Below, one piece after another: positions 7,083 through 18,082 of a DNA stretch of 64,000 nucleotides. The stretch lies in contig RXIY01000023.1 of the NCBI GenBank assembly GCA_003963405.1, positions 1 to 64,000 of the forward strand, given 5' to 3'. Origin of the DNA: Hyphomicrobiales bacterium. GTDB lineage: Bacteria; Pseudomonadota; Alphaproteobacteria; Rhizobiales; Beijerinckiaceae. Made by a program: the position numbers and the translations under genes. The notes beneath the pieces are model-generated. The model was not told the DNA's origin, ran no database searches, and saw nothing but the letters and a program-made list of their open reading frames with translations. Positions within the stretch are counted from its first letter, which is position 1; every line of letters starts with the position of its first letter.

Positions 7083-7131
7083 CAATTCGCTCGCCGGCGC
7101 GGCCGGCGGGGCTGGAAGGGGCCGTTTGAGA

Positions 7132-8043
7132 ATGTCGATTGCGCCGTCCTTGACTGTCATTGCTCGGGCGGCAGGGACAGCCGTCTTTTTGTGCGCTTGC
7201 GGGCCGGCGTCGCCTGTGTCCGCGCAGATGGCGCTTCCCGGCGCCGTGGAGCCGACGCCCGAAGGCACTGTCGCTTCGCCCCGACCGAAGAAGAAGCTCA
7301 GCAGCGGCGAGATGGGGTCGGCGCGCGGCCCCGTCGTCATGCCCAAGGCGCCATCCGAGGACACGATCGTCGGCAAGGCGCTGATGCTGGACGGCAACGG
7401 CAGCACGATCGAATTCGCGCGGAACGGGTCCGATGTCCAGGTCGTAAAGCTCACGCTGGCCGGCGACCGGCTGTCGCGTTCCGGCGAGGCGTGCCGGGTC
7501 GACATCGCCGGCATGCCCCTGAAGCTGACGCCACGCGACAGTGGCGCAGGGCTGCGCCGTTATCAACTCGCCGCCCTCACGGCCTGTCCGTTCACGCTCG
7601 ACGTTCTGGACGGCGCCATTCTCGTGACCAATGACGGCAAGGCCTGCGAGATCAAGGAGGCGGACTGCCGCGCCGATCCGAGCGGGCTCTGGGGAATGCC
7701 CGAGACCGACTTCGACCCCAAGAAGGCCGAGGAAATGCTCGGCGCCCGCGCCAGCGTCGAGAAGACGGTGCGCTCCGATTTCCGCGCGCTCTACGATCGC
7801 AACAAAGCGGACAAGCTGGTGCGCGGCTTCGTGGTGAAGGAGCAGGCGGGCTTTTCCTCCTGGCGCGAGGAAGTGTGCCGCTCCTACGCCAAGGAATCCG
7901 ACTTCGGCTATTGCGCCCTGCGCCTGACCGAGGCCCGCGTCATCGCCCTCGGCGCGCAGCTCGCGGGCGGGGTGAAGTTGCCCGAAGGCTATGCGGAGAC
8001 CGTCGCCGCCGAGGAAACCGCCGCCAAGGCGAAGAAGAAGTAG
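7132..8043 (+). CDS. exported protein of unknown function, weakly LprI-like
   Basis: About 303 residues from the ATG at 7132 (a TTG at 7126 is an alternative two codons upstream). An N-terminal hydrophobic segment ending in ASPVSAQ is a signal peptide. The middle holds repeated Cys residues (GEACRVDIAG, TACPFTLD, GKACEIKEADC). The C-terminal part (FSSWREEVCRSYAKESDFGYC, then ALRLTEARVIALGAQL) faintly resembles the Cys-containing repeat of lysozyme-inhibitor LprI-like proteins, which I offer only as a hint. It converges on the ABC permease gene with 17 bases between the stops and is probably unrelated to the lanthanide cluster. Confidence 0.65.
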   Translation: MSIAPSLTVIARAAGTAVFLCACGPASPVSAQMALPGAVEPTPEGTVASPRPKKKLSSGEMGSARGPVVMPKAPSEDTIVGKALMLDGNGSTIEFARNGSDVQVVKLTLAGDRLSRSGEACRVDIAGMPLKLTPRDSGAGLRRYQLAALTACPFTLDVLDGAILVTNDGKACEIKEADCRADPSGLWGMPETDFDPKKAEEMLGARASVEKTVRSDFRALYDRNKADKLVRGFVVKEQAGFSSWREEVCRSYAKESDFGYCALRLTEARVIALGAQLAGGVKLPEGYAETVAAEETAAKAKKK

Positions 8044-8060: not shown

Positions 8061-8906
8061 CTATCCGCCCTTCCGCATCAGCATCCCACGCGCGGGGTCA
8101 TAGGCGATGATCGCGCCCGTTAGAAACACGCTCGTATAGGCGAGGACCGCGGTGAGCGAGGTCCATTCGATCTGCTGGTAGAAGGCGAAGCGTATCAATT
8201 CGACGGCGTGGGTGAAGGGATTGGCGAGACACACATAATAGAGCCAGGGGCTCGACTCCTTCACGCGCCAGAGCGGGTAGAGCGCGGAGGAGGCGAAGAA
8301 CATCGGGAAGATGACGAAGTTCATCACGCCCGCGAAATTCTCGAGCTGCTTGATCAGCGACGACAGCAACATGCCGAGCGCGCCGAGCATCAGCCCGCCG
8401 AGCGCCAGCGCCGGCAGCACGGTGAGATAGCCCCATCTGGTCGGCGGCTCGATCTCCCAGAAATAAGCAATCAGCAGAAAAGCGTAGACCTGCAGGATCG
8501 ACACGGCGACGCCCGCCATCAGCTTGGCGCCGAGCAAAAACCATCGCGGGAAGGGCGAGACGAGCAGCGTGCGCATATTGCCCATCTCGCGGTCGTAGAC
8601 CATGGAGAGCGACGACTGCATGCCGTTGAAGAGCTGGATCATCGCCATGAGGCCCGGCGCGATATAGACCTCGTAGAGCACATAGGTCTCGTAAGGCGGG
8701 ATGATCGAGACGCCCAGCACCTGCCGAAATCCCGCCGCGAAGATGAAGAGCCAGACGAGCGGCCGCACCAGCGCGGAGACGAAACGCTCGCGCTGATGCA
8801 GGAAGCGCAAGCCTTCGCGCCAGACGACGCCCATGAGGCAGATGAGATATTGGCGGGGCGTAAAGGAGCCCTCCCTCTCCGTCGTCATCGGCAAAAAGTC
8901 CTTCAC
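8061..8906 (-). CDS. lutF: ABC-2 type permease of the lanthanide/PQQ-associated ABC transporter
   Basis: The 281-residue membrane protein has about six hydrophobic segments (LVWLFIFAAGF, LMAGVAVSILQVYAFLLIAY, VLPALALGGLMLGALGMLL, VMNFVIFPMFFASSALYPLW, LTAVLAYTSVFLTGAIIAY) and the ABC-2 NPFTHAVELIRFA motif. It belongs to the family named for PQQ-dependent alcohol dehydrogenase ABC systems, which in methylotrophs forms the inner-membrane part of the lut lanthanide importer. The GTG at 8906 lies next to the stop of the ATPase gene; an ATG at 8888 is an alternative. It is the last gene of the operon. The symbol is assigned by analogy. Confidence 0.8.
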   Translation of the reverse strand: MKDFLPMTTEREGSFTPRQYLICLMGVVWREGLRFLHQRERFVSALVRPLVWLFIFAAGFRQVLGVSIIPPYETYVLYEVYIAPGLMAMIQLFNGMQSSLSMVYDREMGNMRTLLVSPFPRWFLLGAKLMAGVAVSILQVYAFLLIAYFWEIEPPTRWGYLTVLPALALGGLMLGALGMLLSSLIKQLENFAGVMNFVIFPMFFASSALYPLWRVKESSPWLYYVCLANPFTHAVELIRFAFYQQIEWTSLTAVLAYTSVFLTGAIIAYDPARGMLMRKGG

Positions 8907-8907
8907 C

Positions 8908-9651
8908 CTAACCCGCTCGGGCGTCGACGCCCGTGATCCTTGCGAAGGCGGCGCCGATGCTGTCGGCGTCCGCTTGCGTGGCGATCTCTCTCGCGCGCCC
9001 CGTCGCGAGCACCTTGCCCTGATGCAGGATCACGACCGGGTCGTCGTCCTCGATCTCGTCGATCAGATGCGTCGTCCACAACACGCCGAGCCCCTCGTCG
9101 CGCACGAGGCCGCGCACATGAGCAAGCAGATCGGCGCGCGCCTTGATGTCGAGGCCGACGGTCGGTTCGTCGAGCAGCAGCAGGCGCGGCTTGTGCAGCA
9201 GCGCGCGAGCAATTTCGACGCGGCGCATCTGCCCTCCGGAGAGGGCGCGCGCCTTGTCGTCGGCGCGTTCGGCGAGGCCGGCGCGGGCGAGCGCCTCAAG
9301 GCCGAGACGGCGCGCCTCCAGCGGGCCGATTCCATGCAGCGCCGCGTGATAAATGAGGTTTTGCATGAGGCTCAATTCGAGATCGAGCGTGCGCGCCTGG
9401 AAGACGACGCCGAGACGCCGCAACGCCGCGCCCGGCGCCCGCATGACATCGGCGCCGAGGATGTCGATCTCGCCGCTTCGCGCCGCATAGAGCCGCGTGA
9501 CGAGGGAGAAGAGCGTGCTCTTGCCGGCGCCGTTCAATCCCAGCAGCACGGTGAAACTGCCGGGCGCGACCGTGAAGGACACGTCGTCGAGCGCCTTGCG
9601 CGACCCGTAGGAATGGCTGACGTCTCTGATGTCGAGGGCCGGGACGCTCAT
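8908..9651 (-). CDS. lutE: ABC transporter ATP-binding protein of the lanthanide/PQQ-associated system
   Basis: This 247-residue nucleotide-binding subunit has Walker A GLNGAGKST (about residues 38-46), the signature LSGGQMRR, Walker B LLLLDEPTVGLD, and a switch histidine in TTHL. The pairing with an ABC-2 permease, a YVTN propeller and an unusual periplasmic protein is the arrangement found in PQQ-alcohol-dehydrogenase-linked and lut clusters. It starts 16 bases after the propeller gene and directly abuts the permease gene, so it sits in the middle of one operon. It energises import; the lanthanide substrate is inferred from context. Confidence 0.85.
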   Translation of the reverse strand: MSVPALDIRDVSHSYGSRKALDDVSFTVAPGSFTVLLGLNGAGKSTLFSLVTRLYAARSGEIDILGADVMRAPGAALRRLGVVFQARTLDLELSLMQNLIYHAALHGIGPLEARRLGLEALARAGLAERADDKARALSGGQMRRVEIARALLHKPRLLLLDEPTVGLDIKARADLLAHVRGLVRDEGLGVLWTTHLIDEIEDDDPVVILHQGKVLATGRAREIATQADADSIGAAFARITGVDARAG

Positions 9652-9667
9652 CGCGCCACACCCGCCG

Positions 9668-10633
9668 TCATTGCGGCGCCACCACGACGCCCCAGGGGAA
9701 GGAGCCGACGGGGATCGACTTGACCACCTTAAGACTGGCCACGTCGATCACGGAAATGTCATTGGAGACGCCATTGGCGGTGAGCAGATATTTCTCATCC
9801 GGCGTGAAGGCGAGATGCCAGACGCGCTGGCCGACGAGCAGATATTTCTCGACCTTCTTCGTCTCCGCGTCGATGACGGCGACGCGGTTCGCCGGCCCGA
9901 GCGCCACAAAGGCGCGCTTGCCGTCCTTCGTGATGGAAATGCCGATCGGCTGGATCGCCTCTTTCGACATGGCCGGAATCTCGAAGCTGATTTTCTGCTT
10001 GAGCACGCGTTTCACCGGATCGATCACCGCCACCGTGCCGCCGACTTCGGAGGAGACCCAAAGCTCCGAGCCGTCCTTCTTGAATTCGGCGAAGCGCGGG
10101 CGCCCGTCGACGAGAATATTGGCGACGATCTCCTTCGTCTGCGTGTCGATGAGATGCGCCATATTCGTCGTTTCGGACGTGTTGACGAGCAGCTTGCCGT
10201 CCGGGCTCACCGCCATGCCCTCTGGCTCGACGCCGACCGGAATGTCGCCGATCTGCTCCCTGCGCTTCACGTCGATCAAGGTGACGAGATTGTCGTTCTC
10301 ATTGGAGACGTAGATCGTGTCGCCGCCGGGGCTCAGCGCCAGAAGCTCCGGATCGGGGCCGGATGGCAGCTTGCCGGTGAGTTTCAGGGATTTCGTATCG
10401 AGCACCTGAATGGCGTCGTCGTCGCCGGCGCAAATGTAAAGTTCGGAGCCGTCTTTGTTCAGCTCGATGCCGCGCGGGCGCCGCCCCACTTTCACCGTCG
10501 CCGTCGCTTCGAGCTTGTCGGTGTCGATGACGGTGATGGAGTTGCCTTTTTCGTTGCTGATATAGGCCGTGTAGGCGCCTGCGGGGAGGGGCAGGAGGGA
10601 CGCCAGGAGGACGGCGGCGAAAAGCTTGCTCAT
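9668..10633 (-). CDS. periplasmic YVTN-repeat beta-propeller protein (PQQ/lanthanide-associated)
   Basis: The product is 321 residues with a signal peptide (MSKLFAAVLLASLLPLPAGA) and about seven repeats of the YVTN type (AYISNEKGNSITVIDTDKL, then repeats such as TIYVSNENDNLVTLIDVKR and LLTANGVSNDISVIDVASL). Its family is described as PQQ-dependent-catabolism-associated, and a beta-propeller is also encoded in the M. extorquens lut cluster. The ATG overlaps the stop of the preceding binding-protein gene (ATGA at 10630-10633), so the two are translationally coupled. A periplasmic role in metal or cofactor handling is inferred. Confidence 0.85.
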   Translation of the reverse strand: MSKLFAAVLLASLLPLPAGAYTAYISNEKGNSITVIDTDKLEATATVKVGRRPRGIELNKDGSELYICAGDDDAIQVLDTKSLKLTGKLPSGPDPELLALSPGGDTIYVSNENDNLVTLIDVKRREQIGDIPVGVEPEGMAVSPDGKLLVNTSETTNMAHLIDTQTKEIVANILVDGRPRFAEFKKDGSELWVSSEVGGTVAVIDPVKRVLKQKISFEIPAMSKEAIQPIGISITKDGKRAFVALGPANRVAVIDAETKKVEKYLLVGQRVWHLAFTPDEKYLLTANGVSNDISVIDVASLKVVKSIPVGSFPWGVVVAPQ

Positions 10634-11808
10634 TTCAACCTGCACTTGGTTTCGGGCTGATCGAGGCCCAGCGTATCGAGTTCGCTCACCTGATGCAGAA
10701 AGCCTTCCTGCGGCGAGACGGAGACGGTCATACGGCCGTCGGAGAGAAGGATCGGCTGGCGCAATTGCTGGTTCCACGGGCGCAGCGTCAGCCGCACGCC
10801 CTTGAAGGCCGCGATCGAGAATTCCGGGCTCGCCATGAAAGCGCGCAGCTTTTCCGGGTCGCCGGAATTGGCGCGCGTCGCCGCTTCGCCGATCATGCGC
10901 ATGGCGAGCCAGGCGTTGTTGTCGCGTGCATTCATCAGCCGGCGAAAGGTCGCCATGAAACGGTTCTGCAATTGATGCGCGCCCCATTGCTCATGGGCCG
11001 GGTCCCAGCTCGTCGGATAGAGTCCTGCCGAACCCGCGACCGGGCGCGGGTCCCAAGTGCGATAGGGAAGATAGCCTGCAAAGACCTCGCTCTCGTCGAT
11101 AGCGACGAGCGAATCGTAAGCGGGCGCGTTCTGGGTCAAGACCGGCATCTGGCGCTGCGTCTGCACGGAGCCGGAGTCGCTTCGCCGTCCGCCGCCCGTA
11201 TCCTCGTAAAGGCGTTCCTCGACGATCTTCGCGCCGAACTTCTTGGCGGCGCGGCGGTACGCCTGCGCCAGAAGTTCGTCTTCCGGATGCGAGCCCTTGA
11301 TGAGCAGCCATTTGCGCCATTGCTTCCAGACGAGATATTGCGCGAGCCCGTCCGCCAGCATGGCGCGCGTCGGCGTCACATGGATCACATTGGCGCGGCA
11401 GTCTTCCTCGCGCAGGCGTTCATCCGGCGCCGAGACGTTGAAGAGGAGCGCGCCTTTCGCCCTGGCGCGTTCGCTCGCCGCCAGCAGACGATCCGCATTC
11501 AGATCGGCGATGATGAAACGGGCGCCCTTGTCGACGAGCGCGTCGACAGCTGTTGCGGCATCGGCGCCGGCGTCGAGCTTCTCATCGATCGCTTCATAAG
11601 ACTGATTGGTGAATTTGCCGGTCGTATTATTGTCCGCCGCGCCGAGCAGGGCGCCGGCGAGCGTGTCGTCTGCGGCGGGAATGTCGAGGATCGAGAGCGT
11701 CTCGCGGGAGTGCTCCTGCCGCAGCACGCCGACCTTGATCGCGAGCGCATCCGCCGCGGCGGGCGCGGCGGCCAGCATTATAAGGAAAGCGGCGGCGAGG
11801 CTTTTCAT
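10630..11808 (-). CDS. lutA: periplasmic ABC substrate-binding protein of the lanthanide/PQQ-associated system
   Basis: This 392-residue exported protein has a signal peptide (MKSLAAAFLIMLAAAPAAADA) and a two-lobed periplasmic-binding fold resembling branched-chain amino-acid receptors (IKVGVLRQEHS; LLFNVSAPDERLREEDC; RKWLLIKGSHPED). It matches the binding protein of the PQQ-dependent alcohol dehydrogenase ABC family. In M. extorquens the equivalent LutA is needed for lanthanide uptake. A strong AGGAGG precedes the ATG. An 11-bp hairpin separates it from lanM upstream, and it overlaps the propeller gene downstream by 4 bases. The ligand itself is not evident from sequence. Confidence 0.82.
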   Translation of the reverse strand: MKSLAAAFLIMLAAAPAAADALAIKVGVLRQEHSRETLSILDIPAADDTLAGALLGAADNNTTGKFTNQSYEAIDEKLDAGADAATAVDALVDKGARFIIADLNADRLLAASERARAKGALLFNVSAPDERLREEDCRANVIHVTPTRAMLADGLAQYLVWKQWRKWLLIKGSHPEDELLAQAYRRAAKKFGAKIVEERLYEDTGGGRRSDSGSVQTQRQMPVLTQNAPAYDSLVAIDESEVFAGYLPYRTWDPRPVAGSAGLYPTSWDPAHEQWGAHQLQNRFMATFRRLMNARDNNAWLAMRMIGEAATRANSGDPEKLRAFMASPEFSIAAFKGVRLTLRPWNQQLRQPILLSDGRMTVSVSPQEGFLHQVSELDTLGLDQPETKCRLK

Positions 11809-11828
11809 GCCTCCTAAATGGCCGCTTT

Positions 11829-11862
11829 GGCGCGCGGGATCAAGTCGCCTCTCCCGCGCGCC
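11829..11862 (-). repeat. intercistronic hairpin between lanM and the transporter genes
   Basis: Perfect 11-bp GC-rich arms (11829-11839 and 11852-11862) enclose a 12-base loop in the 66-base gap between lanM and the binding-protein gene. No T run follows on the transcribed strand. It therefore looks more like an mRNA-stability or attenuation element than a full terminator, and could allow lanM to be expressed more strongly than the transporter. Confidence 0.65.
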
Positions 11863-11874
11863 CGAGCCCAGGGA

Positions 11875-12291
11875 TCAATGCGTGACGCGCAGCAGCTCCT
11901 TGCCGGGCTTGGAGGCAAGCTCCTTCTCGTCCAGCGTGCCGTCATTGTCCGGGTCGGCGTCCTTGAACAGCGCCGAGACGGCGGAGAGGAACTCGTCCTT
12001 GGTCAACGTGCCGTCATTGTCCGGATCGGCCGCGGCGAAGGCTTTCTTGGTCAGGCGGCCCTGAATCTCCTTCTTGTCCAGCGTGCCGTCATTGTCCTTC
12101 TCGAGCTTGCCGAACAGCTCTTCGGCGGGCTTGGTGATCTCGTTCAAATCCACGGTCGAGTCATTGTCCGTGTCGAGCTTCGCGACCGGCGACGCCTTGG
12201 CCGCCTTTTTGGCCAGGGCGGGCGAGACCGGCGCCGCGACGAGGCCGGCAAGCGCAAGCGCGCCCGCGAGAACAAATTTGTTGGCTTTCAT
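11875..12291 (-). CDS. lanM: lanmodulin-like lanthanide-binding EF-hand protein
   Basis: The product is 138 residues with a signal peptide ending in SPALA (about residue 27), so it is periplasmic. Four EF-hand loops lie at residues 40-51 (DTDNDSTVDLNE), 64-75 (EKDNDGTLDKKE), 89-100 (DPDNDGTLTKDE) and 113-124 (DPDNDGTLDEKE). Loops within each pair are only 12 residues apart, the spacing that distinguishes lanmodulin from calmodulin-like proteins, which have about 24. Pro at loop position 2 is present in EF3 and EF4 but not EF1 and EF2. GGAGCTGACA before the ATG is the ribosome site. Position beside a TonB receptor and an ABC importer matches the lut-lanM cluster. A calcium-binding role remains possible. 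Confidence 0.85.
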   Translation of the reverse strand: MKANKFVLAGALALAGLVAAPVSPALAKKAAKASPVAKLDTDNDSTVDLNEITKPAEELFGKLEKDNDGTLDKKEIQGRLTKKAFAAADPDNDGTLTKDEFLSAVSALFKDADPDNDGTLDEKELASKPGKELLRVTH

Positions 12292-12368
12292 TGTCAGCTC
12301 CACGTTCAGGAAGAACTCCCGAGATATATTGGAGCCGCTCCCGGTCCGCCAGTAGCGCGTCACGCGCC
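12292..12368 (-). promoter_or_regulatory. putative lanM promoter and operator region
   Basis: Between the receptor terminator and the lanM start, the minus strand carries a TATATC -10-like element (near 12324-12329). Directly upstream of it lies the 11-base palindrome GGAGCCGCTCC (12331-12341). Because a terminator closes the upstream gene, lanM must have its own promoter here. The palindrome position would suit an operator. No clear -35 is visible. Confidence 0.35.
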
Positions 12369-12394
12369 AAAAAAGAGCGGCCCCGAAGGGCCGC
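12369..12394 (-). terminator. Rho-independent terminator after the TonB-dependent receptor
   Basis: On the minus strand a perfect 7-bp stem GCGGCCC/GGGCCGC with a TTCG tetraloop (12377-12394) is followed by TCTTTTTT (to 12369). It lies 14 bases after the receptor stop and separates receptor transcription from lanM. Confidence 0.92.
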
Positions 12395-12407
12395 AAATCT
12401 GTCGGGG

Positions 12408-14828
12408 TCAGTAGGTGAATTTCACGCCGCCATAGATGCCGGTCGGCGGCCCGAGCGAGACCATGCGCGGATTTGTGTAGGTCAGGAAGGCGATGTCATT
12501 CGTGTCGAACCAGGAGCCGAAGGTTCTCGCGCGCGTGTTGGTCACATTCTCGAACAGGCCGTAGACCTGAAGGTTCGGCGTGATCTGATAGGAGGTGCGC
12601 AGGTTCAGCATGGCGTAGGACGGAAGCCGCGCGCCGATGTTGATCTCGTCGCCCCGGATATAGGACCCCGCAGTGTATTGGAAGTCGGCGCCCACCTTCC
12701 ACTGCGTCGTGACCGCGTAATCCGCGCCCGCCTTGAAGCGATGCGGCGCGACCGAGGAGAGATTGGCGCCGGGCGTCACCATGATCGAGCCATTGCCGTA
12801 AAGCTGCGCGAGCGGATTGTCGGGCGCGCCCAGCAGAATTGTCGAACGGAAGGTTGCGATCGTCATCGTATAGTTGACATAGGCCGAGAGACTCTCGTCC
12901 GCATAGCGCAGCGCCACTTCCACGCCCTCGCGCCGCGTCGAACCTGCGTTTGTGAAATAGCCGCGTCCGTTGATCGAACTGGGCACGGCAAGAATGTCGT
13001 TGAAGTTGTTGGTGCGGAAGACGCCGCCGCTCCACGTCACCACGCCGGGAAAATAGTCGCCCGCCGCCGGGAGGACCTTGGGGATTTCCACCGTGCCGCG
13101 CATGCCGAATTCCGTCGTGTTCGACTCGACCTGCTTGAGCGGCGGATCGGCGACAAGGAAGGTGTCGAGCAAACAGGGGCGCGCGGGGTCGGCGCAGCCG
13201 AGCTCGAGCGGCGTCGGCGCACGATTCGCCTCAGAGTAGCTGGCGTAGGCAAAGGTGTTCGGCAACACTTCATAGGTCGCGCCGGCCATAGGATTGATGC
13301 GCGTATAGACGCCCGCGCCGTTGAGCGCCGTGCCGCGCAGATCGTATAGGCTGATCCCCGCGCGATTGAACCGCGCGCCTGCGGTAATTTTCAGCCGGTC
13401 GGTGACGTCCAGCGTGTCGAGCGCATAGACGCCGAGATAGGAGTTGCCCGCAGTGACCTTTACGGGCGAGATGTCGCTCGCCGGCTCATCGACGAAATAG
13501 TTGATCCCCTGTACGGCGAGGGTCGGCGGAATAATTCCCAGCTCCTGGATGGCGCTGAAGGATGTCCAGCCCTGATCGAGGCTGGCGCCGAAGGTGATCT
13601 TGTTGTGGAAGCCGAAGTAAACGTCGTCGTTCGTCGCCTGCACGGTCCCGCCGATGGTGCGCGAGCGCGTCCAGGTGCGGTCGACGGCGCCGAGTTGAAC
13701 CTGTCCGTCGAAGAAATTCGGGATGGAGGTTGGATCGCCGTTGCTGTTTTCGCAGATGGCTTCGCCCGGCTCACACTCGAACTCGGTCGTATTGCCGTCG
13801 ACGCGGGCCTGGTCGAAAGCGCGGTAATGCACGTCGCCGAAGAGTTTCCAGCTCGGGCTCGCCTGCACATTGCCGTTGACGTCGAACATCGACAGCGTGT
13901 TCTTCTGCGACTGGGGCGTGGTGTACACAGCCCAGGGATTGCGCGTCACGTCTTCGACCGGTGCGGGGCCGGTGCCGTTGATCTTGTTGCCCGCGAGGGT
14001 CACATTGGCGTGGATCTCGGCTTGGTCGCCGCGGTAGCCGATGTCGCCGTAAAGGCGCTTGATGTGGCCGCCGGAGAAGTAGCGGTAACCATTGTCGCCC
14101 AGCGCCTCCAGCGCGAGATAGGCCGCGTAGGGGCCGGACTGCACGCCGAACTGGCCATAGCCCTGCCGTCGCCCCCGGCTGCCGCCGCGCCCGTCGATCT
14201 CGAGGCCCTGATAAGTGAAGCCGTTCTTCATATCGAGGACGACGGCGCCGCCGATGGCGTTCAGGCCGAAAAGCGGATTGCCGGTGACGATCGTCGAGCG
14301 GTCGATGGCGATGTTGGGGATCATGTCCCAATAGACATTGTCGCCCCAGGCTTCGTTGATGCGAATGCCGTTCTGATAGACGGCGAGGCCCTGCGGGGTG
14401 CCGGCGACCGGCGAGGCCAAGAAGCCGCGAAAATCGACTTGCGGCTGCAAAGGATTGCCGGTGACGTCGTTGACGCTCACGCCGGGGGATTGGCGAAGCA
14501 GATTGTCGACGAGCTCGAAGCCGCGCGTGTTCTGCAACTGTTTGGACGAGAGCGTGTAGGTCGCCGCCGGAACCGCATATTGAATGACGACCGGAGAGAC
14601 TTGCCCCGCGCCGGCGCCGGCGCCGGGCGCGGCGGGCTGGGCCGCGGGCGCAGCCGCAGCGGCGACGGGCCGGCTCGGACCCTGGGCGGCGGAGGGGCGC
14701 GCGGGACGCGGCGCCGTGGAGCGCAGGGGCGCGCCGCCGACTTCGATGGTCGGGAGGGTCTGCTGTGCAAGGGCGGTCGATGAGAGGAGCGCAGCGCCGA
14801 GAGTGGTCAGAGATCGAAGTTTAGCCAT
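12408..14828 (-). CDS. lutH: TonB-dependent outer-membrane receptor, probable lanthanide (lanthanophore) uptake
   Basis: The product is about 806 residues from the ATG at 14828, which begins a good signal peptide (MAKLRSLTTLGAALLSSTALAQ); ATGs at 14858 and 14888 are alternatives. A Pro/Ala-rich stretch of about 60 residues follows. Next comes the plug domain (LVDNLLRQSPGVSVNDVTGNP; GLAVYQNGIRINEAWGD; NPLFGLNAIGGAVVLDMKNG), then a 22-strand-type barrel ending in GIYGGVKFTY with an aromatic terminus. Such receptors move scarce metals or chelates across the outer membrane using TonB energy. Its place beside lanM and the ABC genes equates it with LutH of M. extorquens. Another ligand is possible. 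Confidence 0.85.
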   Translation of the reverse strand: MAKLRSLTTLGAALLSSTALAQQTLPTIEVGGAPLRSTAPRPARPSAAQGPSRPVAAAAAPAAQPAAPGAGAGAGQVSPVVIQYAVPAATYTLSSKQLQNTRGFELVDNLLRQSPGVSVNDVTGNPLQPQVDFRGFLASPVAGTPQGLAVYQNGIRINEAWGDNVYWDMIPNIAIDRSTIVTGNPLFGLNAIGGAVVLDMKNGFTYQGLEIDGRGGSRGRRQGYGQFGVQSGPYAAYLALEALGDNGYRYFSGGHIKRLYGDIGYRGDQAEIHANVTLAGNKINGTGPAPVEDVTRNPWAVYTTPQSQKNTLSMFDVNGNVQASPSWKLFGDVHYRAFDQARVDGNTTEFECEPGEAICENSNGDPTSIPNFFDGQVQLGAVDRTWTRSRTIGGTVQATNDDVYFGFHNKITFGASLDQGWTSFSAIQELGIIPPTLAVQGINYFVDEPASDISPVKVTAGNSYLGVYALDTLDVTDRLKITAGARFNRAGISLYDLRGTALNGAGVYTRINPMAGATYEVLPNTFAYASYSEANRAPTPLELGCADPARPCLLDTFLVADPPLKQVESNTTEFGMRGTVEIPKVLPAAGDYFPGVVTWSGGVFRTNNFNDILAVPSSINGRGYFTNAGSTRREGVEVALRYADESLSAYVNYTMTIATFRSTILLGAPDNPLAQLYGNGSIMVTPGANLSSVAPHRFKAGADYAVTTQWKVGADFQYTAGSYIRGDEINIGARLPSYAMLNLRTSYQITPNLQVYGLFENVTNTRARTFGSWFDTNDIAFLTYTNPRMVSLGPPTGIYGGVKFTY

Positions 14829-14980
14829 TGTGCCGGGGGCCACGAGTTGGATTTCCATGCTCCCGCTTATAGCGTTTCGCGCCCTCATCGTATCAACGGG
14901 AGAGGCTGCGCCCGCCAATATTCCCGGCCTGTGGCCTATTGGCTACAGTTCTGAAAAATAACGGTTTTATCGGGATCGTG

Positions 14981-16321
14981 TCATGACGGGTCCGGGAATT
15001 TTTCCCGAATTCGAGACGGTTTTGACCCAGATCGCCGCAGCTCCGCGGAAAGCTTCGCGCCGCCTCCGGGAGCATTCGTCAAGGTCAGCCTCCCGCCGAG
15101 CGCGGCGACGCGTTCGCTCATGCCTCTGAGCCCCAATCCGCCGCCCCCGCCCGCTGAAAATCCGGCGCCGTCGTCCTCGACCTCGATGCGCAGCGTTTCC
15201 TGTTCCCGAGAGACGCTCAGGCGGATTCGGCGCGCGCCGGAATGGCGGAAGGCGTTGGTCAGCCCCTCCTGCGCCACGCGATAGGCGGTGAGCGCCGTGG
15301 TTTCGTCGATCGGCCCGCGCGCGCCGTCGAGGGCGAGATCGATCGTCACGCCGGCCCGCGTCTCCCGCCAGCCGCGCGCGAGCGCCTCGAGCGCGTCGGC
15401 GAGGCCCATTTCGGAGAGCGCCGCCGGGCGCAGCCGGCCCAGAATGCGGCGGTTCACCTGCTGCAGCGCCGCGATCTGCGCGTCGATCTTCGTGCAGTCT
15501 TCAACGAGGACTTCGGGATCGGCGCCGCTACGGGCCTTGCGCGCCAACGCCCCGACGCCAGCGCGAATGGCGAAGAGGAAGGGGCCGATTTCGTCGTGAA
15601 GATCGCGCGCAATGTCGCGTCGCTCTTCGTCCTGCACATGAATCATGCGGCGCACCAGGCGCCGGTTTTCATCGTCCAGCCGTCGCAGCGTTGCAGCGAG
15701 CGCGTTGATCCGCTCTGCGATCAGGATGAATTCCGGCGGCCCATCGGCGCCCGCGCGCACGTCGTAGTCGCCTTGCTCCAGCCGCCGCAGCGCGTCCGAG
15801 AGCGCGCCGATGGGGCTCAATGTGCGGGAAACGGCGTAGGAGACGAGCGCGAAGGCGACGCCCGCGACGCCGGCCGCGCCGATCGCGAGCCAGACGATCT
15901 CCTCCCAAATCTCTGCGATTTCATCGGCCGGATTGGCGGCGATCTCCACGGCGCCGAGCGGCGTCGCGATTCGCGCGGGCGGCGGAGGGCGAAACACGAG
16001 CGCGCTGAACCAGTCGGGCGCGGGAGTCTTCGATTTCGGCGGCGGCTCGGCCTCGGCTTCGACGCCGACCCGCACGTGTCGCAGCCGCCGCACATCCTGG
16101 AGAAGGTCGTCGAGTTCGGCCTTGGGGTTCGCCGCGCCGCTCAGGCGGGGCAGAGTGGCCTCGACCAGATCGCGCGCGAGCCGCGTCGCGCCTTCGGCCT
16201 CTGCGCTGACGCGCGCGCCGGCGTGGAGAATCAGGAGCCCGACGCCAAAGGCCAGGCCGCAGACGATCACGCCGCCGAGCAGGAGAGACAGCCGCGCGCG
16301 CAAGGACAGACTTTGCAGCAT
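14981..16321 (-). CDS. membrane sensor histidine kinase, NarL/UhpB type
   Basis: The protein has 446 residues from the ATG at 16321 (MLQSLSLRARLSLLLGG). Two transmembrane segments (about 10-32 and 155-178) bracket a periplasmic sensor region of about 120 residues. A HAMP segment follows, then the HisKA_3 dimerisation domain with phospho-acceptor His in DEERRDIARDLHDEIG, and a HATPase with DDGAGF and GGGLGLRGMSERV. It is divergent from the response regulator at 16400 with 78 bases between. It lies upstream of the receptor gene on the same strand, so control of lanthanide or PQQ genes is a reasonable inference. The signal is unknown. Confidence 0.88.
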   Translation of the reverse strand: MLQSLSLRARLSLLLGGVIVCGLAFGVGLLILHAGARVSAEAEGATRLARDLVEATLPRLSGAANPKAELDDLLQDVRRLRHVRVGVEAEAEPPPKSKTPAPDWFSALVFRPPPPARIATPLGAVEIAANPADEIAEIWEEIVWLAIGAAGVAGVAFALVSYAVSRTLSPIGALSDALRRLEQGDYDVRAGADGPPEFILIAERINALAATLRRLDDENRRLVRRMIHVQDEERRDIARDLHDEIGPFLFAIRAGVGALARKARSGADPEVLVEDCTKIDAQIAALQQVNRRILGRLRPAALSEMGLADALEALARGWRETRAGVTIDLALDGARGPIDETTALTAYRVAQEGLTNAFRHSGARRIRLSVSREQETLRIEVEDDGAGFSAGGGGGLGLRGMSERVAALGGRLTLTNAPGGGAKLSAELRRSGSKPSRIREKFPDPS

Positions 16322-16399: not shown

Positions 16400-17017
16400 A
16401 TGCGGGTTCTTATCGTTGACGACCATCCGATCATTGTCGCGGGCTGCGCCGCCATGCTCGCGGGGGAGGGCGACATCGACGTCGTCGACGCGCGCGACGC
16501 GGAGACGGGTCTCGCCGCTTTCCTCGCGCACAGGCCGGATGTGACGGTCGTCGACATCGCCATGCCGGGCGTGTCGGGTCTCGAGCTGACGCGCCGTATC
16601 CTGCAGGAGGACCCCGCGGCGCGCATCGTCGTCTTCAGCATGAACGACGATCCGATCTTCGCCGCGCGCGCCATCGACGCCGGCGCGAAAGCCTATGTCA
16701 CCAAGAACGACGATCCCTATCTGCTGGTCACGGCGGTGCGCGAGGTCGCGGCGGGCGGCGTGTTTCTGATGCCGAAGATCGCCAATCAACTCGCCTTCGA
16801 GAAAGGCGGCGGCGCGGGTCCGCTCGCGGCCCTCACGGCGCGGGAGCTCGAGATCCTGCGCATGCTGGGCGCGGGACTGGGCATGAATGAAATCGCCGAG
16901 GCGACGCAGGTCTCCTACAAGACCATCGCCAATAGCTGCTCGATCATGAAGCGCAAGCTCGGCGCCCGTACGCCCATGGAGCTGATGAAGATCGCGCTGG
17001 AGCAGAAGCTGGCGTGA
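16400..17017 (+). CDS. LuxR/NarL-family response regulator
   Basis: The product is 205 residues. The receiver domain has acidic D7-D8, phospho-acceptor D52 in VVDIAMPG, and the conserved Lys in AYVTKND. A C-terminal LuxR-type helix-turn-helix follows (LTARELEILRMLGAGLGMNEIAEATQVSYKTIAN). A strong ribosome site GGAGGA (16391-16396) fixes the ATG at 16400, although the frame is open much further upstream. It is the obvious partner of the divergent histidine kinase. Targets are unknown, and neighbouring lanthanide, pqqA or peroxidase genes are candidates. Confidence 0.92.
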   Translation: MRVLIVDDHPIIVAGCAAMLAGEGDIDVVDARDAETGLAAFLAHRPDVTVVDIAMPGVSGLELTRRILQEDPAARIVVFSMNDDPIFAARAIDAGAKAYVTKNDDPYLLVTAVREVAAGGVFLMPKIANQLAFEKGGGAGPLAALTARELEILRMLGAGLGMNEIAEATQVSYKTIANSCSIMKRKLGARTPMELMKIALEQKLA

Positions 17018-17050: not shown

Positions 17051-18082
17051 CTACTTCGCGTCCGGGAAGGGCTCGGGCGCCGAATAATTCGCCGGGACCG
17101 CCCCCGTCAGGCTGCCGAGGAAGGCGACGATGTCGGCCGTCTCCTGCGGAGACAACGACTTGCCGAGCTGCGTCTTCCCCATGATCTCCACGGCCTTCGC
17201 CAGTTGCGCGACCGAGCCGTCGTGGAAATAGGGGTCGGTCTTCGCCACGTTGCGCAGGCCCGGAACCTTGAAGACATAGAGGTCGGCGTCGTTCTTGGTC
17301 ACATCGGCCCGGCCCTTGTCGGGCGTCTTCACGCCGGTCTCTTTCCAATAGTCTTCGACGACCCCGAACTTCTGGAAGGAATTCCCGCCGACGCCCGGCC
17401 CATTGTGGCAGCCAGCGCAGCCCGTATCGATGAAGAGGCGCAGGCCGGAAAGCTCTTGCGGCGTCAGCGCCTTGAGGTCGCCAGCGAGGAAGGCGTCGAA
17501 TTTCGAGGGCGTGAGCAGCGTTCGCTCGAAGGCGGCGACGGCGAGGCCCCAGTTCTTTGAAGTCACAGGATCCTTTTCGCCGGGGAACGCCTTGGCGAAC
17601 GCCTCCGGATAAGCGGGCACGGCCTTCAGCTTGCCCATGGCCGCCGCCTGGTCGGGATTGCCGAAGCTCGCGGGGCCGAGCAGCGACTTTTCAGCCTGAT
17701 CCTCGAGCGATTCGCGGTCCCCGCGCCAATGCTGCTTGAAATTCAGCGCGGAGTTGAACACCGAAGGCGCATTGCGCGGATTCTCCTTGCCGAAGACGCC
17801 GATCGCCTTCGCTAGGCCGTCGCTCGCCTGCCTGTCCGGCAAATGGCAATGCGCGCAGCTCACATTGCCGTCCTCGGACACGCGGTTCTCGAAAAACAGC
17901 CGCCGGCCGAGCTCGACGCGGGCCGCCTGAACGGGGTCCTTGGCGACAGGGGCAGGGGGGAGCGGCTGAAAGAGAGCCTTCGCCTCGTCGAGGAGCTTTC
18001 CGGCGTCGGGCGCTCCGGCCCCCGCGGGCGCGGGCGTAAAGGTGGCGGCCAGAAGAAGGGCGGCGAGAATCGGATGTCTCAT
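17051..18082 (-). CDS. periplasmic di-heme cytochrome c peroxidase / MauG-like protein
   Basis: The product has 343 residues, a signal peptide (MRHPILAALLLAATFTPAPAGA) and two c-type heme motifs, CAHCH (about residue 79) and CAGCH (about 223), as in bacterial cytochrome c peroxidases and MauG. Family features include GRRLFFENRVS, RNAPSVFNSALN, FKVPGLRNVAKTDPYFHDGSV and LSPQETADIVAFLGSLTG. It either reduces hydrogen peroxide or, MauG-like, modifies a partner protein. GGAG lies 6 bases before the ATG. The stop faces the response-regulator stop. Its neighbour pqqA suggests a role in the PQQ-linked periplasmic electron chain, which is inference. Confidence 0.88.
   Translation of the reverse strand: MRHPILAALLLAATFTPAPAGAGAPDAGKLLDEAKALFQPLPPAPVAKDPVQAARVELGRRLFFENRVSEDGNVSCAHCHLPDRQASDGLAKAIGVFGKENPRNAPSVFNSALNFKQHWRGDRESLEDQAEKSLLGPASFGNPDQAAAMGKLKAVPAYPEAFAKAFPGEKDPVTSKNWGLAVAAFERTLLTPSKFDAFLAGDLKALTPQELSGLRLFIDTGCAGCHNGPGVGGNSFQKFGVVEDYWKETGVKTPDKGRADVTKNDADLYVFKVPGLRNVAKTDPYFHDGSVAQLAKAVEIMGKTQLGKSLSPQETADIVAFLGSLTGAVPANYSAPEPFPDAK

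Follow-up and report, generated by a model that had tools for sequence, protein, structure and literature searches.

A probable lut-lanM lanthanide uptake cluster in a Methylocystis, with a candidate operator and a neighbouring MxaYB-type sensor pair

We describe here six genes, lutH, lanM, lutA, lutB, lutE and lutF, that lie together in a stretch of 64,000 nucleotides (positions 1 to 64,000 of contig RXIY01000023.1, assembly GCA_003963405.1; at its full length, the window) from a bacterium that is a Methylocystis (Beijerinckiaceae), along with a short inverted repeat, TCGGGA-N5-TCCCGA (the dyad), found in near-perfect form upstream of lutH and lanM, and a neighbouring sensor kinase and response regulator. 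Judged from its sequence, the cluster is very probably the lut-lanM lanthanide uptake and trafficking operon of this Methylocystis. The uptake operon is an already known kind of gene cluster, and it is the missing calcium enzyme, the linked sensor and the dyad that are together unexpected to a specialist. Our reading of these is a tentative one, which we think somewhat more apt to prove wrong than right: the dyad would be a lanthanide-regulon operator common to Methylocystis, Rhodoblastus, Bradyrhizobium and other Alphaproteobacteria, and the lut-linked MxaYB-type pair, through one site differently placed, would switch lutH and lanM oppositely in a methanotroph without the calcium enzyme.

All six genes are on the minus strand between positions 8061 and 14828, as the first-pass annotation of this DNA had proposed, and five of them (lutF, lutE, lutB, lutA and lanM) score over curated NCBIfam cut-offs. 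Reading along that strand, the TonB-dependent receptor gene lutH (12408..14828; Pfam Plug and TonB_dep_Rec_b-barrel) starts with the ATG at 14828 or an alternative ATG at 14858, and is followed by lanM (11875..12291, 138 amino acids; NF053806, 148 bits with a cut-off of 135), whose corrected start is the ATG of MKANKF. Then come lutA, for a periplasmic binding protein (10630..11808; TIGR03863, 472 bits, cut-off 414); lutB, for an exported YVTN beta-propeller (9668..10633; TIGR03866, 506 bits from a start at 10591, cut-off 287), whose corrected ATG at 10633 overlaps the lutA stop in the sequence ATGA; lutE, for the ATPase of an ATP-binding cassette (ABC) transporter (8908..9651; TIGR03864, 338 bits, cut-off 302); and lutF, for an ABC-2 type permease (8061..8906; TIGR03861, 395 bits, cut-off 241) that is 92-95% identical to those of three other Methylocystis loci. 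The LutA, LutE and LutF transporter and the LutB propeller are thus encoded contiguously, with a gap of 16 nucleotides between lutB and lutE and of 1 nucleotide between lutE and lutF if lutF starts with the GTG at 8906. A predicted intrinsic terminator of 7 G-C pairs and a T run (12377..12394, minus strand; RNA fold z-score -2.07, in a region with 13 terminator-like sites against 8.6 expected) lies between lutH and lanM, and makes a separate control of lanM possible.

The likeness to the lut cluster of Methylorubrum extorquens AM1/PA1 (lutA-I, lanM; PMC7391723) extends to LutA, LutB, LutE, LutF, LutH and LanM, all of which are encoded in the window. Mutants of the M. extorquens genes are impaired in lanthanum (La) uptake or distribution: those in lutH leave more La in the medium and form no La deposits, and those in lutA, lutE or lutF accumulate La in the periplasm (PMC7391723). 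The gene order does differ from that of M. extorquens, as the first-pass annotation stated, but it does so as a rotation, H-lanM-A-B-E-F. The further remark that no additional exported lut proteins can be seen holds for the cluster, which contains no LutC/D- or LutG-type gene, and fails in two respects, since the YVTN propeller is itself LutB in published naming (PMC9291206) and the source genome encodes, on another contig and outside the cluster, a protein homologous to the one in the LutG position (G000:C77:1632-2207; 39% identity, E 1.2e-33). No counterpart of the small exported protein that fills the LutC/LutD position, between lutB and lutE, lies in the cluster, and a search of the source genome with it, which had no positive control, gave no match; the query sequences for both positions came from a single Methylobacterium cluster, L249. 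Loss of lutD had no significant effect on growth of AM1 and loss of lutC a small one (PMC7391723).

The receptor was compared in both directions. LutH of the L249 cluster, which is ordered lutA-lutB-x-lutE-lutF-G-lutH-lanM and is also found at L250 and L251 in the Methylobacterium group (g9), matches only the window receptor in the source genome (G000; 4.64 Mb in 122 contigs), in two pieces of 44% and 41% identity. Window LutH in turn finds matches of 39-46% identity in six g9 genomes; these lie inside the lut cluster in G130, G147 and G008, and in G049 as a second-best copy, but in G083 and G108 on a contig other than that of lutA. LutH exceeds the cut-off of no named receptor among the NCBIfam models, and no solved structure was matched by its sequence. 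A strong match to it (E 2.1e-245 or better) is present in 36 of the 39 genomes of the genus (a fragment in G174, a weak match in G165, none in G159), with next-best matches far weaker in every case except for a second full copy in G150. In all of the 14 Methylocystis-type loci compared (L114-L127) lutA comes next after lanM, and in eight of them lutH lies directly upstream of lanM. Thirteen have the kinase and the regulator upstream, and in the remaining one the contig ends at lanM. One Methylocystis lutH (L068, at G017:C6:117872-120211) has an in-frame TGA.

The product of lanM is a four-EF-hand lanmodulin, in agreement with the first-pass annotation. Its best match among solved structures is lanmodulin 6mi5 (E 6.6e-26; we take 8fns to be the same protein), followed by 8dq2 (E 7.1e-15), which is presumably Hans-LanM. 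Behind a signal peptide recognised by eye, the EF loops are DTDNDSTVDLNE, EKDNDGTLDKKE, DPDNDGTLTKDE and DPDNDGTLDEKE, with spacers of 12, 13 and 12 residues. The published hallmarks of lanmodulins are four EF hands, a spacing of 12-13 residues, proline at position 2 (Pro2) and a length under 200 residues (PMC10232371), and LanM has all of these, with Pro2 in at least one loop. Like the M. extorquens-type protein of 6mi5 it has Pro2 in EF3 and EF4; it differs from 6mi5 in lacking Pro2 in EF1 and EF2, and in having Glu in EF2 (position 1), Thr in EF3 (position 9) and, in place of Asn, Asp in EF4 (position 1). We considered whether LanM is odd within its family and rejected the idea, as no pattern is commoner than Pro2 confined to EF3 and EF4 (53/105 and 5/5 distinct cores of the fetched set, in a division into Methylocystis and others that is unreliable because duplicate cores assigned to short loci were counted as 'other'). 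Lanmodulin matches occur in 56 of 149 genomes of the family, 34 of them over the cut-off.

The dyad was recognised, together with a second conserved block, in an alignment of the regions upstream of lutH from 15 Methylocystis loci. In the window it occurs twice with one mismatch, upstream of lutH and of lanM. The candidate operator of lutH, TCGGGAAAAATTCCCGG (14992..15008, minus strand), is centred about 172 nucleotides upstream of the ATG at 14828, within the last codons of the kinase gene, and the conserved block CGTTATTTTTCAGAACTGTAGC (14942..14963, minus strand), a probable promoter region, lies between it and lutH. The candidate operator of lanM, TCGGGAGTTCTTCCTGA (12306..12322, minus strand), is centred about 23 nucleotides upstream of the lanM ATG. 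When a looser pattern of 16 bases is allowed one mismatch, the window has 7 matches against 3.7 expected, which is not significant.

The specificity of the dyad is illustrated by its distribution in 2.51 Mb of fetched, non-redundant DNA. There are 36 perfect copies with the five-nucleotide spacer, compared with 0 to 2 for each other spacer from 0 to 15, and of the 119 other permutations of the half-site, counted at spacers of 4-6, none occurs more often than 9 times, the highest count reached. Thirty-three of the 36 precede lutH (28), lanM (3) or a gene for a quinohaemoprotein dehydrogenase dependent on pyrroloquinoline quinone (PQQ) (2); of the remaining three, two are inside kinase coding sequence (L017, L161) and one is in a convergent region (L137). 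For counts by gene class we allowed 0-1 mismatch within 300 bp upstream, and used genes reaching each profile's score threshold with one representative per identical upstream stretch. On this basis 39 of the 68 distinct lutH genes have the dyad upstream, compared with 40 hits among 3000 random 300-bp windows (true sites included), and it is also found before lanM (6/117), the quinohaemoprotein dehydrogenase (2/3), the regulator (3/38) and lutE (1/30), but not before the kinase (0/32), lutA (0/62), lutB (0/50) or lutF (0/29). The other stretches fetched from the same species (400 kb) contain no perfect copy and a single copy with one mismatch (three of five spacer bases G or C). The dyad is found in separate places, before lanM in Methylocystis and Bradyrhizobium, before the dehydrogenase in Bradyrhizobium, and before lutH in Rhodoblastus, and these separate placements argue for a shared regulator. 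The dyad may be an operator of a lanthanide regulon. It appears to be new; among the papers listed by the literature searches, none was recognised as reporting a lanthanide operator or motif.

The window also provides a candidate for the regulator. Immediately upstream of lutH is a gene for a sensor histidine kinase of MxaY type (14981..16321, minus strand; HisKA_3, HATPase_c and HAMP over cut-off, with a weak LapD_MoxY_N match below it), and divergent from this is one for a LuxR-type response regulator of MxaB type (16400..17017, plus strand; Response_reg and GerE). The sequence kinship of both genes to MxaY and MxaB and their divergent layout were confirmed, and by this kinship the pair is a paralogue of the lanthanide-switch system MxaY/MxaB, belonging to a paralogous clade and not to the mxa-linked one. 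In an alignment-based tree of 30 kinases, the five mxa-linked ones and one from Methylosinus form one clade (support 1.0) to which the lut-linked kinases of Methylocystis do not belong, and all 30 share the motif D/N-E-x-x-E-x-W just ahead of the second membrane helix. MxaY is reported to be active without lanthanum, and in M. buryatense it became constitutively active when a Glu that is widely conserved and not part of the known kinase domains was altered (PMC5018670). The window pair thus resembles the MxaY/MxaB of that report in its divergent layout and in the motif before the second membrane helix, but it forms a separate clade and adjoins lut instead of mxa, in a species in which mxaF and mxaI were not found. 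An MxaYB arrangement in Methylosinus and Methylocystis has been described (PMC9291206); a lut-linked sensor appears to be a new and unexpected feature. In some other Methylocystis loci a gene for a DUF1614 membrane protein lies between the kinase and lutH or lanM (L256:12318-13223 by Pfam match; L257, L124, L118 and L072 by eye), a position at which it is not found in the window.

The dyad and the pair tend to occur together. We compared lutH genes outside Methylocystis (n=39 in 38 loci, with the same score thresholds) according to whether one or both members of the pair lie within 6 kb. With up to one mismatch the dyad stands before 9 of the 19 that have the pair so placed and before 1 of the 20 that do not (Fisher p 0.003); for the perfect dyad the counts are 6/19 and 0/20 (p 0.008), and with up to two mismatches 11/19 and 3/20 (p 0.008), all three values being uncorrected for kinship. 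Both dyad and pair are linked to lut in the window, whereas neither lies beside five lutH genes of the Methylobacterium group, a set to which the M. extorquens genome itself does not belong. In Methylosinus (g42) the lut-linked pair adjoins lanM-lutABEF (L133, L161).

The third unexpected component is the set of methanol dehydrogenases. The first-pass annotation had suggested that xoxF be sought elsewhere in the genome, and dehydrogenases with the lanthanide-type aspartate, taken as a second Asp two residues after the catalytic one, are indeed present in the source genome: one XoxF-type gene with D-H-D (L002) and one quinohaemoprotein with D-F-D (L003). There is also a dehydrogenase fragment at a contig edge. 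A second genome of the same species (G163, 6 contigs) has four XoxF genes with D-Y-D, two others that score nearly as the G000 genes do, and one broken fragment with stops that is 45-54% identical to the MxaF query. A Methylocystis MxaF query found genes of 90-100% identity in 7 of the 11 genomes searched and no 90% identical piece in G000, G163, G057 or G180. MxaI (PF02315) is present in 26 of 39 genomes of the genus (22 of the 30 good ones), and the search for it found none in G000 or G163. With neither MxaF nor MxaI found in either assembly, the species is probably lanthanide-dependent in its methanol oxidation, as is Methylosinus sp. Ce-a6, a related methanotroph that has lost functional MxaF (PMC7104280). 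A deletion left a truncated mxaF in Ce-a6, in contrast to the present species, in which neither a 90% identical piece nor MxaI was found; its genome carries lanM-lutA-B-E-F with the pair nearby (L133). Ce-a6 was the case that literature searches for a Methylocystis without mxaF brought up in the text available to us, and the tables of PMC12482762 may hold others. We regard the species as a probable lanthanide-only methanotroph, its methane oxidation being taken from the genus. We note that dehydrogenase genes beside lutH or lanM in L070, L083 and L254 were considered as xoxF on their scores with a XoxF profile and rejected, Ala at the metal position identifying them as mxaF.

These components can be assembled into a model. 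By analogy with M. extorquens mutants, LutH would bring chelated lanthanide across the outer membrane, LutA would hand it to the LutE/LutF ABC transporter with LutB assisting in the periplasm, LanM would buffer periplasmic lanthanide, and the imported metal would serve XoxF methanol dehydrogenases; these transport roles are carried over by orthology only. The neighbouring pair of MxaY/MxaB type is probably a sensor of periplasmic lanthanide, and TCGGGA-N5-TCCCGA may be the site at which its regulator binds. If it behaves as MxaY does, the kinase would be active without lanthanide and the regulator phosphorylated, so that from the far-upstream dyad it would activate lutH and from the dyad beside the lanM start it would block lanM; addition of lanthanide would reverse both effects. 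We hold these regulatory steps, which lean on analogy, to be evenly balanced at best and rather doubtful at worst. Published directions of expression agree with the model in part. In Methylocella proteomics with lanthanide, LanM was 26- to 39-fold up and lutBAH homologues 3- to 5-fold down (PMC9291206), the M. extorquens lutH promoter is repressed by La (PMC7391723), and in strain RH AL1 lanM rises with La (PMC8316094), the carbon source being pyruvate (PMC10848612).

A number of observations weigh against this model. Lanthanide genes were the basis on which the DNA was fetched, and most sites are orthologous copies upstream of lutH in related species, so that the dyad counts are not independent events. 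A dyad before XoxF/MxaF-type genes was sought and rejected, as none of 52 has one with up to one mismatch, leaving XoxF-type promoters without it, and no such dyad was found around the dehydrogenase genes and the positional lutG in the stretches fetched from G000 and G163. The absence of Pro2 from EF1 and EF2 and the Glu1 of EF2 mean that the affinities of window LanM may differ from those of the lanmodulins studied. LanM was not confidently detected in Methylosinus trichosporium OB3b (PMC12482762), and lanM of RH AL1 was strongly lowered by a change of La, 50 nM versus 1 uM (PMC10848612). The lutH-like receptor of OB3b falls with Ce (PMC12482762) and Methylosinus lutH genes have no good dyad (3-5 mismatches in L266, L318 and L319, 2 in L210), so a lutH response does not need one. 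Of the 14 lutH genes from Methylocystis in the same comparison, three are not near the pair and two of these three have a perfect dyad, and at L073, L083 and L304 the lutH dyad is kept with no pair within 6 kb. The link between regulator and dyad is circumstantial, and there is a chance, a little short of even, that another regulator, such as MxaB itself or an unlinked metal-responsive repressor, binds the dyad while the pair controls, for example, formaldehyde oxidation. The dyads that lack a nearby pair and the pairs of Methylosinus that lack a good lutH dyad would fit such an arrangement, as would the perfect dyads in a convergent region and in kinase coding sequence, and the presence of fhcB and a MauG-type gene as further neighbours of the pair. 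Set against it are the co-occurrence of dyad and pair above expectation among lutH genes outside Methylocystis, the joint absence of both from the five Methylobacterium-group loci, and the tie of the pair's family to the lanthanide switch (PMC5018670).

Two other explanations concern the nature of the dyad and of the cluster. A perfect inverted repeat with a five-nucleotide spacer can form a hairpin, and the lutH copy in the window is at the end of the kinase gene, as might be expected of a terminator or leader structure in RNA; we think this improbable, since no T run follows the dyad in the 15 aligned regions and copies occur before lutH, lanM and the dehydrogenase gene in several genera, with the distance to the gene varying. 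It is more improbable still that the ABC genes function in transport related to PQQ or alcohols, that LutH imports some other chelate, such as iron or cobalamin, and that lanM adjoins them by chance. The NCBIfam names of the ABC genes, 'PQQ-dependent alcohol dehydrogenase system', do read that way, as the first-pass annotation foresaw, and the binding protein has a wider distribution (70/149 family genomes at E <= 1e-30) than LanM (56/149 at E <= 1e-3). However, the 'PQQ alcohol dehydrogenase system' and 'lut' names denote a single set of genes, these families make up, in rotated order, the M. extorquens cluster whose mutants are La-impaired (PMC7391723), LutH matches reciprocally with no siderophore, haem or B12 model reaching its cut-off, and lanM adjoins lutA in every Methylocystis-type locus. 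Taken with the family cut-offs and the lanmodulin hallmarks, this supports the original assignment of the cluster to the M. extorquens lut type.

The surroundings of the cluster provide some further observations. Beside lutF, at 7126-8043 on the plus strand, is a gene for a 305-amino-acid protein that is conserved at this position in Methylocystis (66-88% identity) and has no Pfam or NCBIfam match at E <= 0.01. At the other end, a gene for a MauG/MbnH-type dihaem cytochrome c peroxidase (17051-18082, minus strand), scoring below the curated MauG and MbnH cut-offs, adjoins the regulator; it is kept nearby in 13 of 14 Methylocystis-type loci. At L254 (contig C4 of G150, 193 kb, which may be a plasmid), mxaF, an MxaYB pair, lutA, lutH and an apparently frame-shifted lanM are found together. 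In an uncultured Rhodoblastus (L137, 12991-15114), genes resembling exbB, exbD and tonB by eye are transcribed away from lutH, the dyad lying in between, and are possibly a dedicated energiser for lanthanide uptake.

For the MxaYB-type system and the PedH/PedE switch, a 2024 review states that the exact mechanism remains unknown (PMC11845868). A short, specific site before lutH and lanM, beside a candidate sensor, makes the question of lanthanide sensing directly testable. If our reading is true, the site would also serve as a tag by which genomes could be searched for lanthanide genes, and would provide a possible sensor part for rare-earth detection. For the organism itself, in which neither MxaF nor MxaI was found, lut uptake is predicted to be essential on methane, assuming the methane oxidation of its genus, and in such Methylocystis without the calcium enzyme the supply of lanthanides would then limit methane oxidation.

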